Assembly: GCA_943354555.1 (NCBI GenBank) | Contig: CALRCM010000006.1 | Coordinates: forward strand, 1-37,610 | DNA from: Candidatus Peribacteria bacterium | GTDB lineage: Bacteria; Patescibacteriota; Gracilibacteria; Peribacterales; Peribacteraceae | DNA: 37,610 nucleotides | Reading direction: 5' to 3' | Shown here: positions 1 to 34,375 of the stretch, one piece after another | How positions within the stretch are numbered: position 1 is the first letter of the stretch | Layout: each line of letters opens with the position of its first letter | The notes under the pieces: model-generated | Database searches by the model: none | What the model saw: only the letters and a program-made list of their open reading frames with translations | Told to the model about the DNA's origin: nothing | Translations under genes and position numbers: made by a program

Positions 1-926
1 GCATCCTGTCCGGCGCGGTCAGCGTCCAGACACAGTACAACGGAGTCCGCACTACGTTTGAGAATGCGTGCGTGCTCCTCGGTAAGTGCAGTACCACTCA
101 CGGCTACAACGTTGCATACGCCTGCCTTGTGACACGCAACCACATCGAAGTACCCCTCGACCATAACAATGCGACGCTCGGCACGAATTGCTTCTTTGGC
201 CAGATGCAAACCGAAGAGCACGGCAGACTTACGATAGAGCGGGCCTTCGGAAGAATTGATGTACTTGGCATCATCGTCGCCGATGGTACGGCCTCCGAAG
301 GCAATGATGCGGCCTTGGGCATCACTAATGGGAAAGATGATGCGATTACGAAACCGATCGTAGATTTTTTCCTCCGCAAGATCTTTTTGTATGCCGAGGC
401 CCGCAGCAACTATCTCACGGCGGCTGAATCCCTCTTTAAGCAAGTGCTGGTAAAGCGCACTGAAGGAATCCGGTGCGTAACCGATGCCGAACTTCTCCAT
501 AAGCTCCTGCGGGACACCTCGCTTTGCGATGTAATCCTTTGCTGGAGCGGAAGCCTGGAATGACGCGAGGAAAAACGCCTGCGCAGATTCTGTGCAACTT
601 CGTAGTCGCTCCTTCTCATCTTTTTCGATCACGGGAGCTTTGCCCCTGTCCGGAAGTGTGACGCCGGTCTTTTCCGCAAGATCACGGATGGCCTGTGGGA
701 AATCCACATTTTCAATTTTCTGGTAAAAAGAGAAGATGTCACCGCCGGAACTGCAGGCGAAGCAGTACGCGATGCCTTTGTCGGGCGAGACAAGAAAGCT
801 TGGGTGTTTGTCATTATGAAACGGACAGAGCGAAATAAAGCTGCGGCCCTTAGGCTTGAGCTGGACATACTGCGAGACCAATTGCTCGATGGGGAGCCGC
901 GCTTTGATTTCGGTAACGGGGTCCAT
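1..926 (-). CDS. dnaG: DNA primase DnaG, N-terminal part (cut by window edge)
   Basis: DNA primase makes the RNA primers that start Okazaki fragments at the replication fork, in contact with the DnaB helicase. I translated the minus strand from the ATG at 926 and got about 308 residues without a stop before the window ends. The N-terminal CHC2 zinc finger is complete: Cys34 and His37 (CPFH) and Cys55 and Cys58 (YCFAC). The catalytic core follows, with the TOPRIM glutamate in MVEGYFDVV and the DxD motif in CLDADRAG at the very edge. The C-terminal helicase-binding domain lies outside. The start is firm, because an in-frame TAA lies four codons upstream. There is no Shine-Dalgarno sequence; TATAAT ends 8 nt before the ATG, so the message is probably leaderless. 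Confidence 0.96.
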   Translation of the reverse strand, partial: MDPVTEIKARLPIEQLVSQYVQLKPKGRSFISLCPFHNDKHPSFLVSPDKGIAYCFACSSGGDIFSFYQKIENVDFPQAIRDLAEKTGVTLPDRGKAPVIEKDEKERLRSCTESAQAFFLASFQASAPAKDYIAKRGVPQELMEKFGIGYAPDSFSALYQHLLKEGFSRREIVAAGLGIQKDLAEEKIYDRFRNRIIFPISDAQGRIIAFGGRTIGDDDAKYINSSEGPLYRKSAVLFGLHLAKEAIRAERRIVMVEGYFDVVACHKAGVCNVVAVSGTALTEEHARILKRSADSVVLCLDADRAGQD

Positions 927-934
927 GGAGGATG

Positions 935-940
935 ATTATA
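935..940 (-). promoter_or_regulatory. -10 box of dnaG
   Basis: A perfect TATAAT on the minus strand, 8 nt before the dnaG ATG. Transcription would begin at or next to the start codon. I see no convincing -35 box. The in-frame TAA that fixes the dnaG start overlaps this box. Confidence 0.6.
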
Positions 941-970
941 GAGGCATATAGGTTTGATGGTAGGAAAAGA

Positions 971-1002
971 TCCACCGTAGAGACGTACTGTCAGTACGTC
1001 TC
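971..1002. repeat. GTAGAGACG-type palindrome, copy A
   Basis: CACCGTAGAGACG leads into an 11-bp perfect inverted repeat (980-990 with 992-1002) centred on position 991. The TGA stop of the transposase lies inside it. A second copy with the same outer bases but a different, compensating inner stem is at 4609-4640. The outer GTAGAGACG/CGTCTC is the kind of REP-like palindrome dispersed in many bacterial genomes; here it may also be the right-end hairpin of the IS200-type element. Confidence 0.75.
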
Positions 1003-1479
1003 ACAAATAAAAGAAGATTCGAGCGCACCATCCTTGGTGCGCTTCGACGCGCACTGCTGCCGATGAATCTGCTTGTAGATCATGCCTTGGTTCTGGACGT
1101 AGCGCCTGATCACCTCTTCGTTCGCATACTGTCCAACCGTGTTCATGTAGTAGCCGCTCGTCCAGAAATTGCCACCCCAGAGCATCTTTTTGACCTCCGG
1201 GTGGGTCTCAAAGATATGTTTGGATGTGAGGCTTTTCGTGATTTGTGCAATCTTTGTTGGGGAGAGAACCGGAGCGCTCTGGATGAGGAAATGGACGTGA
1301 TCAAGATCCGCCCCAATCTCTATGAACCGAAGTTCGTAGCGCTCTTGAATTTCCAGACAGACCTGTTTCAGTGCCTGTTCCACTGGTTCTGTCAGAGCTT
1401 TTTTCCTGTACTTCACAGGACACACCAAGTGGTAGAGCAGAAGCGTCCTGTTGTGGCGTTTGGTGATGTGCTCACTCAC
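991..1479 (-). CDS. tnpA: IS200-type transposase TnpA (Y1 HUH family)
   Basis: A Y1 HUH single-strand transposase of 162 residues from the GTG at 1479, the usual size for IS200 TnpA. The family start pattern (SEHITKRHN then LLYHLVCPVKYR) decides the start; an upstream in-frame ATG at 1518 would add 13 residues and begin inside the left hairpin. The HUH motif is DHVHFLI with His61 and His63. The nucleophilic Tyr127 and Gln131 lie in RRYVQNQ, the same positions as in the well-studied IS608 enzyme. All catalytic residues are present, so it may be active. The stop codon lies within palindrome copy A. It could equally be called REP-associated (RAYT-like), but the length and motifs fit IS200 better. 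Confidence 0.93.
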   Translation of the reverse strand: MSEHITKRHNRTLLLYHLVCPVKYRKKALTEPVEQALKQVCLEIQERYELRFIEIGADLDHVHFLIQSAPVLSPTKIAQITKSLTSKHIFETHPEVKKMLWGGNFWTSGYYMNTVGQYANEEVIRRYVQNQGMIYKQIHRQQCASKRTKDGALESSFICETY

Positions 1480-1512
1480 CCGATGATGGTACACCTCAAG
1501 GAACCCTGACCC

Positions 1513-1529
1513 CCGCACTCTGAGTGCGG
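1513..1529. repeat. Left-end hairpin of the IS200-type element
   Basis: A 7-bp perfect stem (CCGCACT with AGTGCGG) and a 3-nt loop, 34 nt upstream of the tnpA start. Position and size suit the subterminal hairpin that IS200-family transposases recognise. Confidence 0.55.
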
Positions 1530-1801
1530 AGTATTACGGAATCAAAGCATCCTTCGAATCTGAATGTGCCCGCTACAACAGACTTATCGGACAGCAGCTG
1601 CTCTTTCCTGATGAGCCTCTCAGCATTAATGAAATACCTGAAAGCCCATCTGAAACTGGACCAGAACCTGAAGCATCTCCTCACATAATACTACGAGTAC
1701 CAAGCACGAGAGTATCTGTAGATCTTCCTGCTCCCGAACCTCTCACACCTCTCAAACCGGAAGAAGTTCTTATAGCATCTCCAGCGCTGATCATCCGCTA
1801 C

Positions 1802-2404
1802 ATGGACGGCATCAACGAGCAGTCCAACGGCGGACTGGAAGATGACGTACACCCCATAATCGCAAGACTAGGGATTCCTTGGGCAAATTTCCGCCTCTGG
1901 CGCGACGAATACGAGGTGATTGCGATTGCAGCAAAGATCCTTGAAGCAAGTCATCATGATGGAAAGGTAGGACGGCTGAAGCAGGGAGTGGTGAAATGGG
2001 TCATGCGATCCGTCAGGATGGAATGCGACGGCGATGATCAAAAAATTGCGCAGCGCATGGAGGAACTCGGTCTCGCCGCCCACTACGCCTACAGAAGCAG
2101 AGGGGGCGAGACGGATTCTGGTGAGCCGAAAGTGAGAGCTCCACGCAAAGTGGACCCTGTTGTTGATCCACGTTGGAAGTTTTTGCAGGATGCACCTCGA
2201 AGGCCATTGCCTGCAAAGATGGTAAAAGTGAAGAAGACCAAAAAAGAACGAGACCCAAGGCTTGAGGATGCGGACTACCAGCTTCTCCTCCTCGCCAGAC
2301 GCCTACTGAAAGCAGTGGAAACAGATAAACCGGATCCATGGGTATACGCCATCGGAAAGCTCGAAGCATCCCTCGAAGAAAAGACTGAAACAAAGCTTGC
2401 ATGA
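1802..2404 (+). CDS. Hypothetical protein, probably 5'-truncated by the IS
   Basis: I do not recognise this 200-residue protein. From the ATG at 1802 it has a mixed helical N-terminal half (GIPWANFRLWRDEYEVI and a basic helix around residues 55-70), then a linker rich in Pro, Arg and Lys, then a helical C-terminus. The frame stays open upstream to a TGA at 1508-1510, adding about 97 codons that read like real protein (Pro/Glu-rich, no stops). The natural start was therefore probably further left and was removed or separated by the IS200-type element. A weak GATCAT box 7 nt before 1802 could allow leaderless expression of the shorter form. It is followed by two more unknown genes on the same strand within the island. 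Confidence 0.6.
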   Translation: MDGINEQSNGGLEDDVHPIIARLGIPWANFRLWRDEYEVIAIAAKILEASHHDGKVGRLKQGVVKWVMRSVRMECDGDDQKIAQRMEELGLAAHYAYRSRGGETDSGEPKVRAPRKVDPVVDPRWKFLQDAPRRPLPAKMVKVKKTKKERDPRLEDADYQLLLLARRLLKAVETDKPDPWVYAIGKLEASLEEKTETKLA

Positions 2405-2462
2405 GAAGCCAGAGCTCCTAATATACCCCCCTTCTTTCCATACTATGCTAACCGAATCTTAA

Positions 2463-3719
2463 TTGGATACACCGGTAACAGAACTCCCCGAAGGAGTGAA
2501 CCGTGAGGTCTTCGAAAATTTGGAAACCGCATTTGGAGATGATTGGAAGCATTTTCCACCTGAGGAACAAAAGCGTATTTGTGAAGTGGTTGAAAGCATC
2601 CCGCCAGTCGTCAAAAGTCAAAGACGCGCCTTTACACAGGAAATGCTTCAAAACCTCGTTCAGGTGCATGGTCTCATTGTTATGCGAGGTATCAACACGG
2701 AGCCGCTTGCTATGCTTACGAACTTTGCGGGTATTGCTGCTATCAGAGGATCCATTGAAAAGTTCAATGCAAATGAGGCAAATGTAAAGAAGGTACGTCT
2801 GCTGACGAAAAGAGAGGCTTCACTGCTTGCGGAAGTAGAACGCAGACTACCGGATCACACCAAAATTACAGGAAAAAGGACCAACGATGAACTACGGCAA
2901 TTCACGCCACTTGCTGTCGCGTGGATACGACTAAAAAAGAAAGAAGGGTTCGCGAATATAGTAGGGAAAGATAAACGTGATACTGTAAACATGCCAAACC
3001 ACAGAACAACCAAGCCAGATGAAGACAACCGTGGCACTGCAGTTTTTGATCTTCTCCCAGACGATCTCAAGGCAATCCTCATCCCGCCCCCAAAAGCGGA
3101 TGCAAAGGTCGATGCAGAAGTACGAGATGTACAAACCGAACTTCGCGATACTCTTGAAGGAGGTACTGGCAATGATGCAGGCCCGGATAAGACCGGCGTT
3201 GTATTCAGACATCGGGGAGAGCAATTGGGAGATGAACCAAATACTGACGCTGAACCAGATGCAGAATACAGGCCGGAGACGCTTGTGGAGAGAAGGGACA
3301 GAAATGCCGCCGCCAAACCTCAAGCTAAACAATCTCAGGAAGTCGATCAGAGCGATGCAAGCAATGAAAAAGCAGTACAGTCGATCAGTGACGCAGACAG
3401 AGCGTTGATGGAAGCATCGGTCCCTATGCTTAAGCGGGTTCTGGACCAGACAGCTCTCATTCCTGTAGGGCAGGAGGATAGTCCAAAGGCAAGAACTTTG
3501 GAGAGGGCTGCACAAGCGCTAGATGCAATTACAGCTCGCATCGCCGGTAATAGCGCTCCGAGAGCACAACTCACTATTGGCACAAAAGAAATGCTGGTAA
3601 GTGATGCAACCCTCAGAAGAATTGAGTCTGGATCAGTTGAGGTTGTTGTTACCATTCGCGAGGTCATCATTCGAAAAGGCACTGGAAAAGGAGCTGCTGC
3701 AGAGACGGAAAGTGCGTAA
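2463..3719 (+). CDS. Hypothetical protein, 418 aa, helical ends with disordered middle
   Basis: Unrecognised. The N-terminal 150 residues look folded and helical (for example AFGDDWKHFPPEEQKRI and a hydrophobic stretch LIVMRGINTEPLAML). Residues about 200-310 are charged and low in hydrophobics (Asp, Glu, Arg, Gln rich) and probably disordered. The last 100 residues look folded again, ending in a beta-like stretch (SVEVVVTIREVIIR). The reading frame begins at a TTG at 2463, with an in-frame GTG alternative at 2496. Neither has a clear Shine-Dalgarno; a TATGCT box lies at 2444-2449. There is no signal peptide or membrane segment. The next gene starts 16 nt after its stop. Purine-rich codon use resembles the other island genes more than the core genes. 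Confidence 0.65.
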   Translation: MDTPVTELPEGVNREVFENLETAFGDDWKHFPPEEQKRICEVVESIPPVVKSQRRAFTQEMLQNLVQVHGLIVMRGINTEPLAMLTNFAGIAAIRGSIEKFNANEANVKKVRLLTKREASLLAEVERRLPDHTKITGKRTNDELRQFTPLAVAWIRLKKKEGFANIVGKDKRDTVNMPNHRTTKPDEDNRGTAVFDLLPDDLKAILIPPPKADAKVDAEVRDVQTELRDTLEGGTGNDAGPDKTGVVFRHRGEQLGDEPNTDAEPDAEYRPETLVERRDRNAAAKPQAKQSQEVDQSDASNEKAVQSISDADRALMEASVPMLKRVLDQTALIPVGQEDSPKARTLERAAQALDAITARIAGNSAPRAQLTIGTKEMLVSDATLRRIESGSVEVVVTIREVIIRKGTGKGAAAETESA

Positions 3720-3722
3720 TGG

Positions 3723-3728
3723 TATACT
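3723..3728 (+). promoter_or_regulatory. -10 box before the 3736 ORF
   Basis: TATACT ends 7 nt before the ATG at 3736, with no recognisable -35. It supports choosing 3736 over the in-frame ATG at 3601, which would overlap the previous gene by 119 nt. Confidence 0.5.
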
Positions 3729-3735
3729 GATCTCA

Positions 3736-4431
3736 ATGCTCCTCCTGCGACTCGATGAGAGACATGAAGGTACTCCAGCTGCTCTGCTACAAAGAGGAAT
3801 CTCTCTGCAGGAAACGACGACCCGCTTCTCTCTTCGGGATGTTTTAGAGCACGGACAAACAAGAGTGAATCTCCGGACAGTGAATAGTCCTGCAAAACCA
3901 CAACCTGCATTACCGGCCTTTGAAGAGCCAAAGCCGATAGAGCTTATTGAGAGTATTGCTGATGCCATAAAGCAGGAACTGGAGATTGTGGATCCGGAAA
4001 TCCAAGCGAAAGCCAAAAACAGCCAATCGGAGAGCGTCCAAGGTACTGCAGAGAGCGATGAAGAGGAGACGAAGGCACTCAAGTTTCACAGAAAAGCAAA
4101 ACCCCTGAATGTTGAAAAAGTCCTGAAAAGAAGAGGTGACCCGGATCCTGAAATAGATGGAGTCTCACTCTGGGAAACAGAAGAAGAGCGGCGAGAGAGA
4201 TCGAAAGCAAAGCGAGAAAGAGCAGGAAAAGAACCTGATGATCTGGTCTTTTGGTCACCCACTCCAGCAAAGAGAATCGTACGACCCCAGTCACCTGCAG
4301 AGCCGGCTGCCGATACGATTGACGCACAGCAGTACCCGTTTCTGGCCGCTATGGAGCGGGAGCAGGCACGTAAGCCCCAAGCACACGATGACGGGGAAAT
4401 AGAAAAACTCCTTCCTGAGCCCAAAAATTAG
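3736..4431 (+). CDS. Hypothetical charged protein, 231 aa
   Basis: Unrecognised. It is very hydrophilic: an N-terminal helical part with LLLRLDERHEG, a central acidic stretch around residues 75-115 (SESVQGTAESDEEET), then a long Arg/Glu/Lys-rich helix (ETEEERRERSKAKRERAG) and a Pro-rich tail. No membrane segment or signal peptide. The start at 3736 is chosen because TATACT sits 7 nt upstream and the previous gene ends at 3719. The frame stays open for 57 further codons after its TAG, ending at 4605 (see the entry at 4447). Together with its neighbours it forms the unknown core of the island; composition suggests a scaffold or nucleic-acid-binding role, but that is speculation. Confidence 0.6.
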   Translation: MLLLRLDERHEGTPAALLQRGISLQETTTRFSLRDVLEHGQTRVNLRTVNSPAKPQPALPAFEEPKPIELIESIADAIKQELEIVDPEIQAKAKNSQSESVQGTAESDEEETKALKFHRKAKPLNVEKVLKRRGDPDPEIDGVSLWETEEERRERSKAKRERAGKEPDDLVFWSPTPAKRIVRPQSPAEPAADTIDAQQYPFLAAMEREQARKPQAHDDGEIEKLLPEPKN

Positions 4432-4446
4432 GTTACCGAATACACC

Positions 4447-4605
4447 GTGGTAGAACCTGGTCCGGATAAAGTTGATATTCTCGCTGCGCGGTATGCTGCA
4501 GGTCTGCCCCTGCACCATGACGGTGACCGGCAGGATCATGCACCTCGTAAAGGAAAAGGAGTCGGTGCCAAATTTGGCGGTTACCATCATAACGATGGTG
4601 AATAA
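4447..4605 (+). CDS. Small ORF or read-through tail of the preceding ORF
   Basis: After the TAG at 4429-4431 the same frame continues open to a TAA at 4603-4605. The tail contains VVEPGPDKVDILAARYAAG and ends KGVGAKFGGYHHNDGE, rich in Gly and His. It could be a separate 52-residue product from the GTG at 4447, the lost C-terminus of the previous protein after a nonsense mutation, or a read-through extension. No ribosome binding site is visible. Palindrome copy B begins 3 nt after the stop. Confidence 0.3.
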   Translation: MVEPGPDKVDILAARYAAGLPLHHDGDRQDHAPRKGKGVGAKFGGYHHNDGE

Positions 4606-4608
4606 TTC

Positions 4609-4641
4609 ACCGTAAAGACGCAACGCCGTTGCGTCTCTACC
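4609..4641. repeat. GTAGAGACG-type palindrome, copy B (possible bidirectional terminator)
   Basis: CACCGTAAAGACG leads a 10-bp perfect inverted repeat (4616-4625 with 4627-4636), and the outer GTA (4612-4614) pairs with TAC (4638-4640). It shares the outer bases of copy A at 971-1002 but has different, self-complementary inner bases. It lies between convergent genes and could stop transcription from both sides, though no T-tract follows. Confidence 0.7.
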
Positions 4642-4676
4642 GCAAGCGATAAACGACAATTTCCATCTTTATCCTT

Positions 4677-6206
4677 CTACGATCCCTTCAGCTGCACAAT
4701 CCACCGCGACAGACGATTTTTGAGGTACCCCTCTTTTGCAAGCCCTCTCCCTATAGCAAGTCCGTTCCAGTGCAGCATCATATCGCCATGCGCATCGTCC
4801 CTGCATTCGATGTTCTGCCCTTCGAGAAGTTCCTGAAGATCACTTTCGCTGATAGTCAGCACACTCTTCGTCGCCTCTATGCCGCGAGCCGTAGCTAGTT
4901 CATCGGTAATGCGAAAGCGACCGTCCTTAAGGCCCTTCGCATACGGAATTCCCATACCGTAATCCACAATGGGAAAGTGCAGTGATGCCGCAAGTTCCGT
5001 AGTCAGCAATACCAGATCACCGCGGTGCACAAGCATCTCCCCTTCGTGCACAAAATCCGTGCCGTAGATGTCCGAAATGCGCTTTCGGATTTCCATCTCC
5101 ATATTTTTGGCAAACCGCTCCTCTCGGCGCGGCACAGATGGAACGTGCTCGCGTGGTCTCGTCGGTGCCTTTTTTAGAAGAACAGCACAGAAGAAGCCTT
5201 CGCTATCATAGGTCTGCGGCCAAATGCGGAGAAGTGGGGAAGGAGAATTGAGCAAAGAGAAATACCCTGTGCTTTTCAGATACTCCTGTACTTTTTGCGA
5301 ATCCCCGATCGCAGTTCTCATTACTAATTTCTCATTACGTATTTGAGGTTCAACGATCTCGAGTTGATCACAAAATTTGTTCAACATATTCAGCACCACA
5401 CCTTCGTTTTCCTCGGGTGTGAGCGTGCAGGTGGAGTACACGATCGTACCGCCGACTTTCGCAGCATGAATCGCAGCTTCAAGAACTTCCGTCTGGAGCC
5501 GTGCCATCTTGGCAATATTTTCTGGACCGCAAAAATTCAGTGCATCGCTGTCTTTGCGTACCGTCCCTTGCGCAGTGCAAGGCGCATCACAGAGCACGCG
5601 ATCGAACTGCTCGGTCATCTGCTTTCCAAACCACTGACCGACTTTTTTCGTGAGAATAACATTGGTCACTCCCGAGCGCTGACATGCAGTATTGAGGGTC
5701 CACATGCGTTTCTCCTGCACTTCATTGGCAATAATGACTCCCCTGCCCTGCATCATCGCCGCGATCTGTGTGGTCTTACTTCCCGGTGCGGCGCACATGT
5801 CGAGCACGGTTTCACCCGGCTGAGGATCCAGCAATACCGGAGGGAGCATCGACGAAGCCTCCTGAAGGTACACATGACCGAGAAGATGCAGGAGATCTTT
5901 GCCGAGAGCTTCGGAGCGGTCCTCGCGGTCTATAAAGAATCCTTCAGTGCACCACGGTACGGGATCGAGTTTCCAGCCGTGATCCACCGCCCACTGCTTT
6001 ACTGTTTCCACACTCGTCTTCAGCGTATTCACGCGGATACATTTACGTAGCGGCTTTGCACTTGCGGCCTTGAGAGCAGCAAGATCGGTAAAGGGGGCAT
6101 AGCGGTCGAGGGCGGTGAAAAGGTCTTTGGGAGTCACGGTAGAAGCAGCTTGAAGGAGGAAGGGAAGAAGATCCAGAACATACAGCATTTGGCTTGCTGA
6201 AGTCAT
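4677..6206 (-). CDS. RsmF/NSUN-type rRNA (cytosine-C5) methyltransferase
   Basis: A SAM-dependent RNA m5C methyltransferase of the RsmB/RsmF/NSUN family, 509 residues. The N-terminal RNA-binding part carries the family signature RKCIRVNTLK (54-63). The SAM loop is DMCAAPGSKT (137-145), motif IV is DAPC with Cys210, and motif VI is STC with Cys260; the two cysteines are those that release and attack the cytosine. Residues about 375-509 match the C-terminal RsmF-type domain with a PUA-like end (MLHWNGLAIGRGL, then LKNRLSRWIVQ). That length and tail favour RsmF (16S C1407) over RsmB, but the exact target base cannot be read from sequence. The start may be 6206 or the in-frame ATG at 6188. It is divergent from the gene at 6229, with 22 nt between them. 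Confidence 0.9.
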   Translation of the reverse strand: MTSASQMLYVLDLLPFLLQAASTVTPKDLFTALDRYAPFTDLAALKAASAKPLRKCIRVNTLKTSVETVKQWAVDHGWKLDPVPWCTEGFFIDREDRSEALGKDLLHLLGHVYLQEASSMLPPVLLDPQPGETVLDMCAAPGSKTTQIAAMMQGRGVIIANEVQEKRMWTLNTACQRSGVTNVILTKKVGQWFGKQMTEQFDRVLCDAPCTAQGTVRKDSDALNFCGPENIAKMARLQTEVLEAAIHAAKVGGTIVYSTCTLTPEENEGVVLNMLNKFCDQLEIVEPQIRNEKLVMRTAIGDSQKVQEYLKSTGYFSLLNSPSPLLRIWPQTYDSEGFFCAVLLKKAPTRPREHVPSVPRREERFAKNMEMEIRKRISDIYGTDFVHEGEMLVHRGDLVLLTTELAASLHFPIVDYGMGIPYAKGLKDGRFRITDELATARGIEATKSVLTISESDLQELLEGQNIECRDDAHGDMMLHWNGLAIGRGLAKEGYLKNRLSRWIVQLKGS

Positions 6207-23540: not shown

Positions 23541-23616
23541 GACCGAATAAGGGAATACGGGAGTACGGGAGTAAGCGAATACGCGAATACGCGTACTCCC
23601 GTATTCCCGTACTCGT
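23541..23616. repeat. Octamer array with 17-bp inverted repeat
   Basis: Six forward 8-nt units (like GGAATACG, GGAGTACG, CGAATACG) are followed by three inverted ones. GGGAATACGGGAGTACG at 23551-23567 pairs perfectly with 23592-23608. The array lies between divergent genes, just upstream of the pilin promoter. Confidence 0.85.
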
Positions 23617-34258: not shown

Positions 34259-34375
34259 AGCTATCAGCTTTGAGCTGTAAGAAAACGTATAGCGCACGAT
34301 TTGAAGCTCATAGCTCAAGACTCCCGCCTTCGTCCGCCTAGGCGAACTACGAACGGGCATCTAAAGCTGAAAGCT
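34259..34375. repeat. AGCT-unit inverted repeat filling the rpsU/protease spacer
   Basis: AGCTATCAGCTTT (34259-34271) is the reverse complement of AAAGCTGAAAGCT (34363-34375) with one mismatch. More AGCT units lie between (34275, 34304, 34312). The right arm runs into the protease gene's last codon and stop. Probably acts as a spacer hairpin or terminator for the two convergent genes. Confidence 0.7.
34323..34357. repeat. Nested hairpin around CGCCTAGGCG
   Basis: CCCG (34323-34326) pairs with CGGG (34354-34357), TTCGT (34329-34333) with ACGAA (34349-34353), around the palindrome CGCCTAGGCG (34335-34344). It sits inside the AGCT repeat as a second element. Confidence 0.6.

Follow-up and report, generated by a model that had tools for sequence, protein, structure and literature searches.

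The region between dnaG and the rRNA methyltransferase gene rsmF in the window (the whole analyzed stretch of 37,610 nucleotides of Candidatus Peribacteria DNA) is best read as a scar of nested insertions rather than a new cargo-carrying transposon. We consider it probable (about 0.8) that the spacer of a REP pair at a variable locus was opened by an IS and a block of orphan genes. According to this model, an ancestral compact REPIN, made of two inverted GTAG-tagged hairpins with a spacer of a few bases, would have been located between dnaG and the methyltransferase gene in the genus. In the lineage of the window, an IS of the IS200/IS605 type would have entered the spacer beside the left REP, and a segment holding three or four orphan ORFs would have come to lie between this IS and the right REP. 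For its single-strand peel-and-paste reaction, the IS would use its own end hairpins and not the REPs, which would belong to a separate RAYT of the same genome. Insertion into the spacer is the simplest history; the order of the insertions and the arrival of the orphan block are what we infer. The features of the region are the following:

927 to 976, no strand: left flank, from the dnaG start to the REP pair, alignable with G003 and G001
977 to 1004, plus strand: left REP, GTAG foot and hairpin, half of the ancestral inverted REP pair
991 to 1518, minus strand: tnpA of the IS200/IS605 type (PF01797, E = 1.9e-34; NF033573)
1022 to 1043, no strand: hairpin AGCGCACCA/TGGTGCGCT, tentatively taken as the right end of the IS
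1511 to 1531, no strand: hairpin CCGCACTC/GAGTGCGG on the 5' side of tnpA, probable left end of the IS
1511 to 2404, plus strand: ORF1, orphan, open frame with the first start codon at 1802, probably 5'-truncated beside the IS
2463 to 3719, plus strand: ORF2, orphan, with a distant relative within a 714-aa frame of G077
3736 to 4431, plus strand: ORF3, orphan, relative not found
4447 to 4605, plus strand: ORF4, short (52 aa), no family
4612 to 4640, minus strand: right REP, other half of the ancestral pair, its GTAG foot facing outward
4641 to 4676, no strand: right flank CGCAAGCGAT..., common to the congeners

The left palindrome has its GTAG foot at 977 and arms of 11 bp (980-990/992-1002), and the right one has arms of 14 nt each (4612-4625/4627-4640) with a complementarity of 93%. 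Two AGACG-type palindromes with 9-nt arms are present in the window, compared to a mean of 0.005 and a maximum of 1 in 200 dinucleotide shuffles; by itself, the looser pattern AGACGN{4,22}CGTCT does not reach significance, with at least 2 occurrences in 18 of 100 shuffles. The description, made from the sequence alone, of two palindromes with common outer bases and different inner stems in which pairing is kept is borne out. Elsewhere in the window, the palindrome GTCCGCCTAGGCGAAC (34332-34347) looks like the inner part of long REP variants (G000 C18 and C22), and an inverted repeat of 31 + 31 bases without a loop, 84% complementary, lies at 23553-23614.

The two palindromes are members of a dispersed family of GTAG-tagged REPs. 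In the window's genome (G000), the pattern AGACG..CGTCTC is matched 42 times forward and 39 times in reverse, some of the matches not being palindromic, versus 17 and 19 times for the reversed control, and a tighter GTAG-footed pattern has 14 and 20 matches versus 0 and 0. The reversed-pattern control for the GTAG-footed palindrome gave 0 matches in 15 genomes, and the palindrome itself was matched 36/36 times in the congener G001, 26/25 times in G002, 26/20 times in G003, and 8/5 times in G004. In 17 re-read stretches, a script located 28 palindromic sites and five pairs with outward GTAG, with a start-to-start spacing of 33 to 94. GTAG-tagged REPs, REP dimers, and REPINs are treated in the parts consulted of Bertels and Rainey 2011 (PMC3116915) and Di Nocera 2013 (PMC3733652). 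The family resembles them in the GTAG foot, the short hairpin, the dispersal, the inverted pairs with outward feet (HH dimers), and the subfamilies with compensating stem changes; it differs in that an IS and ORFs have expanded the spacer in the window to about 3.6 kb. The inner stem of the orthologous REP pair is different in all four species (window, L066, L067, and L068), and several of these stems are present in many copies within the respective genome, as GGACCTGTGGTCC is in G003; this looks like within-species homogenization. In G003, REPs are also found within long open frames of other genes, of 466 and 530 aa (L175 2197; L176 7528).

For the comparison of the junction, 18 stretches were fetched from relatives, with one genome per species. 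In G003 and G002, a compact REP pair separates the neighboring dnaG and methyltransferase genes; in G001, the pair is located in front of dnaG, and the contig ends before rsmF, so that this genome informs on the dnaG side only. These compact inverted pairs (REPINs) measure 61 bp (G003), 62 bp (G002), and 62 bp (G001), have no genes within, and have the outer orientation of the pair in the window. In left-flank alignments with the window, none of 500 shuffles reached the score for G003 or for G001; for G002, 165 of 500 did, which is not significant. The right flank (80 bases, extending into the 3' end of rsmF) was reached by 0 of 500 shuffles for each of G002, G003, and G004 and by 27 of 500 for G001, where the first ten bases are identical, with little similarity beyond. 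CGCAAG, which follows the right REP, was found after another REP too (G000 C3:21757), and therefore, those bases may be part of the element. The flank alignments identify the compact pair as orthologous to the pair in the window on both sides in G003 and on one side each in G002 and G001. From 977 to 4640 in the window, the pair takes up 3,664 bp, and it is compact in these three congeners; hence, about 3.6 kb entered the spacer. Because of a spacer of this size, the copy in the window is counted as disrupted, and on sequence grounds, it is a disrupted REPIN whose compact form, two inverted REPs with a short spacer, is found in G001, G002, and G003. In G004, the closest congener by DnaG (85%), the gap comprises 37 bases with neither REP pair nor island, and therefore, the history of the pair requires a loss.

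The locus is variable in the family. Both genes could be seen at 14 other loci of the family, and at seven of these the dnaG-rsmF gap exceeds 800 bases, an approximate size since gaps were taken between the edges of tblastn matches. The large gaps contain a sodium/hydrogen exchanger (twice), a DUF7067 protein (twice), a MazE-type antitoxin, and a CAAX-type protease, and one of them holds a frame without a Pfam match. The sequence-only reading had offered a hotspot built by repeated insertion as one interpretation, and this is supported by the compact pair in three of four congeners, its absence in the fourth, and the differing extra DNA or genes at 7 of 14 loci. No case was seen in which the ORFs are kept at this locus and the palindromes are missing; the converse did occur, with the palindromes kept at the locus and the ORFs absent.

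The island had been described as carrying three or four ORFs of no known family, and this held up: ORF1, ORF2, and ORF3 are uninterrupted frames whose coding scores point to the correct frame, and no family was found for them in Pfam, PHROGs, PADLOC, or NCBIfam at E ≤ 0.001. The codon usage is unlike that of the flanking genes, as had been noted, with A-ending codons making up 0.31 to 0.35 in the island ORFs versus 0.19 in 20 other ORFs of the window. The extent given for ORF1 (1511-2404) was right for an open and coding plus-strand frame, but the part from 1511 to 1801 is without a conventional start and has a coding score of 0.007.

The island ORFs are rare and fast diverging. tnpA, ORF1, ORF2, and ORF3 each have a single match in their own genome. 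Besides its own genome, ORF1 has one distant match among 74 family genomes; its central part has four matches at E ≤ 0.01 among 353 class genomes, and a three-row profile of the domain, built with G015 and G016, detected it in G015, G016, G034, and, as a marginal match, G287, so that, the window's own genome aside, 4 of 269 class genomes have it. The partial fragment of G034 was included in alignment A1 and the script profile and left out of A2; a match in G239, where the frames resembled a different protein, was not used for the domain alignments. The domain mostly lies within larger hydrophilic proteins, with frames of 663 and 684 aa in G015 and G016 whose N-terminal parts are different, and the relatives are found in other genera at other loci. 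The similarity to G034 starts upstream of the first start codon of ORF1, which suggests that ORF1 lost its 5' end, possibly when the IS or a deletion struck it. A search of the PDB with the domain profile returned only E values of 0.66 and 0.83, and a search of Pfam returned none.

A search of 59 relatives with the whole ORF2 protein matched its own genome only; its first 179 residues had one match among 353 class genomes, in G077 (E = 9.6e-5; pairwise E = 4e-10), and a search of 72,556 plasmid records with ORF2 was negative. The ORF1 domain scores 5.8 bits against the 714-aa frame with the ORF2 relative, a weak link that was reached by 3 of 500 shuffles. For ORF3, no match besides its own genome was found in 74 family genomes. 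Back-translated patterns of ORF1, ORF2, and ORF3 revealed no relatives in viral contigs, and that of ORF1 none in genome contigs. Single-sequence structure predictions covering portions of ORF1 and ORF2 were of low quality (mean pLDDT of 48.6 and 48.8), and Rfam gave one subthreshold match on 900-4750, which was taken as chance.

It is improbable that the locus originally contained the ORFs and that the congeners lost them, with the REP pair left behind. The comparison covers one genome per species, which leaves room for such a history, but all three congener pairs have the canonical compact size, and independent deletions would hardly have produced pairs of a uniform 61 to 62 bp. Furthermore, the relatives of ORF1 are at other loci of other genera.

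A second type of Y1 gene, besides the tnpA of the island, with a GTAGAGACG REP inside the reading frame, is present in G000 C2, G001 C20, and G002 C76. In the window's genome, this RAYT is located at L112 1321-1998 on the plus strand (G000 C2, about 52486-53163). The best match of the RAYTs of G000 and G001 (L112 and L113) is REP_Tyr_transpos NF047646, with 58.6 and 69.5 bits, both under the cut-off of 80, and both genes have an inverted REP at, or just past, the gene end. The RAYT is the likely partner of these palindromes. The in-frame GTAGAGACG palindrome is seen in L112, L113, and L109 and is translated as VETxxxxVS in L112 and L113. In-frame REPs and double-footed REPs are described for TnpA-REP subclass 2.4 in the consulted portion of Quentin 2018 (PMC6006769); the RAYT of the window's genome has the former, and some REPs are double-footed, two features by which it may be assigned to this subclass.

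A RAYT with the same REPs in the same genome, and an orientation that agrees with that of compact REPINs, would also fit a giant REPIN, in which the RAYT acts in trans on the outward GTAG feet and carries everything in between. We consider this very unlikely. A second copy is lacking, with one genomic match each for tnpA, ORF1, ORF2, and ORF3, and the flanks indicate insertion into a preexisting pair rather than a new pair. Moreover, widely spaced REPs that face each other are found kilobases apart in G003 C5 and G000 C2, where they enclose ordinary genes, including those for a YchF GTPase, a sortase, and an amidotransferase; wide bracketing by itself therefore means little. The general form of the idea, that the RAYT mobilizes long DNA between outward GTAG REPs in trans, with REPINs as acceptors and carriers of cassettes and the island as one such cassette, is hardly credible.

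The transposase of the island belongs to another group than the RAYT. An IS200-type transposase had been recognized between the palindromes, and PF01797 (E = 1.9e-34) and NCBIfam NF033573 (IS200/IS605; 129.1 bits, cut-off of 55) agree with this; among the NCBIfam profiles, NF047646 (REP_Tyr_transpos) was not matched. By profile assignment, the enzyme is of the IS200/IS605 type and not a REP-associated transposase. Its stop codon lies within the left REP, and its C terminus diverges from the homologues after about IHRQQ. Of 288 class genomes, 13, the window's own among them, have homologues (E ≤ 1e-20); the congeners G001 to G004, the REP-rich ones included, have none. The tnpA carriers G084, G121, and G174 have no GTAG-footed palindromes; G169 has five, which counts against our model. 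Five homologous tnpA loci, two from one genome, were compared: hairpins of the CCCCG type or similar lie beside the genes, GTAGAGACG was found within 250 bp at none of the five, and L084 has one half site of the GTAGAGACG type about 1 kb from its tnpA. The 1511-1531 hairpin resembles the ends of the homologues L084 and L085 in position and in its CCG..CGG form and is probably the left end; that at 1022-1043, without a match to the right ends of homologues, would be the right end only tentatively. In size and family of its Y1 transposase and in the hairpin on the 5' side, the island IS is like IS200/IS605 elements; it differs in that its right end is not recognized and no TnpB-type partner was found among the island ORFs. 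It also abuts a REP, as do the IS elements using REPs as targets in the part consulted of Tobes and Pareja 2006 (PMC1525189), but is present in one copy only. The tnpA match at L092 (G185) contains TGA in frame 16 times, which recoding of TGA in this class member would explain.

We give almost no credence to a cargo transposon in which the two GTAGAGACG palindromes serve as the ends recognized by TnpA and all 3.6 kb move together: the palindromes do bracket tnpA and the ORFs with their feet outward, and the left one contains the tnpA stop codon, but the transposase type, the ends of the homologues, and the separate distribution of tnpA and palindromes speak against it, the RAYT is the gene that carries and is flanked by these palindromes, each palindrome is one among dozens in the genome, the unit is single copy, and the pair persists at the same site without tnpA or cargo in three of four congeners, with G004 lacking both. 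Of the two interpretations in the sequence-only reading, the hotspot is supported, and the cargo moved by the transposase acting on palindromes is not.

Already in print, in the parts of the literature consulted, are GTAG REPs, HH dimers with inserted DNA, REPINs, REPs in RAYT genes, and IS insertion at REPs. Literature searches on REPINs with RAYT or cargo genes and on Peribacteria, transposase, and REP returned no title pointing to the island, and the titles for the string GTAGAGACG looked unrelated, among the matches listed.

In sum, the window is an example of how later insertions can open a REP pair whose intact counterpart is still present in sister species. For general biology, the finding is ordinary. 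It illustrates that palindromes around a transposase need not be its ends, and for work on lineage-specific proteins of the group, the rare ORF1 domain, which is shared with proteins of other genera that have different N-terminal parts, offers a starting point.
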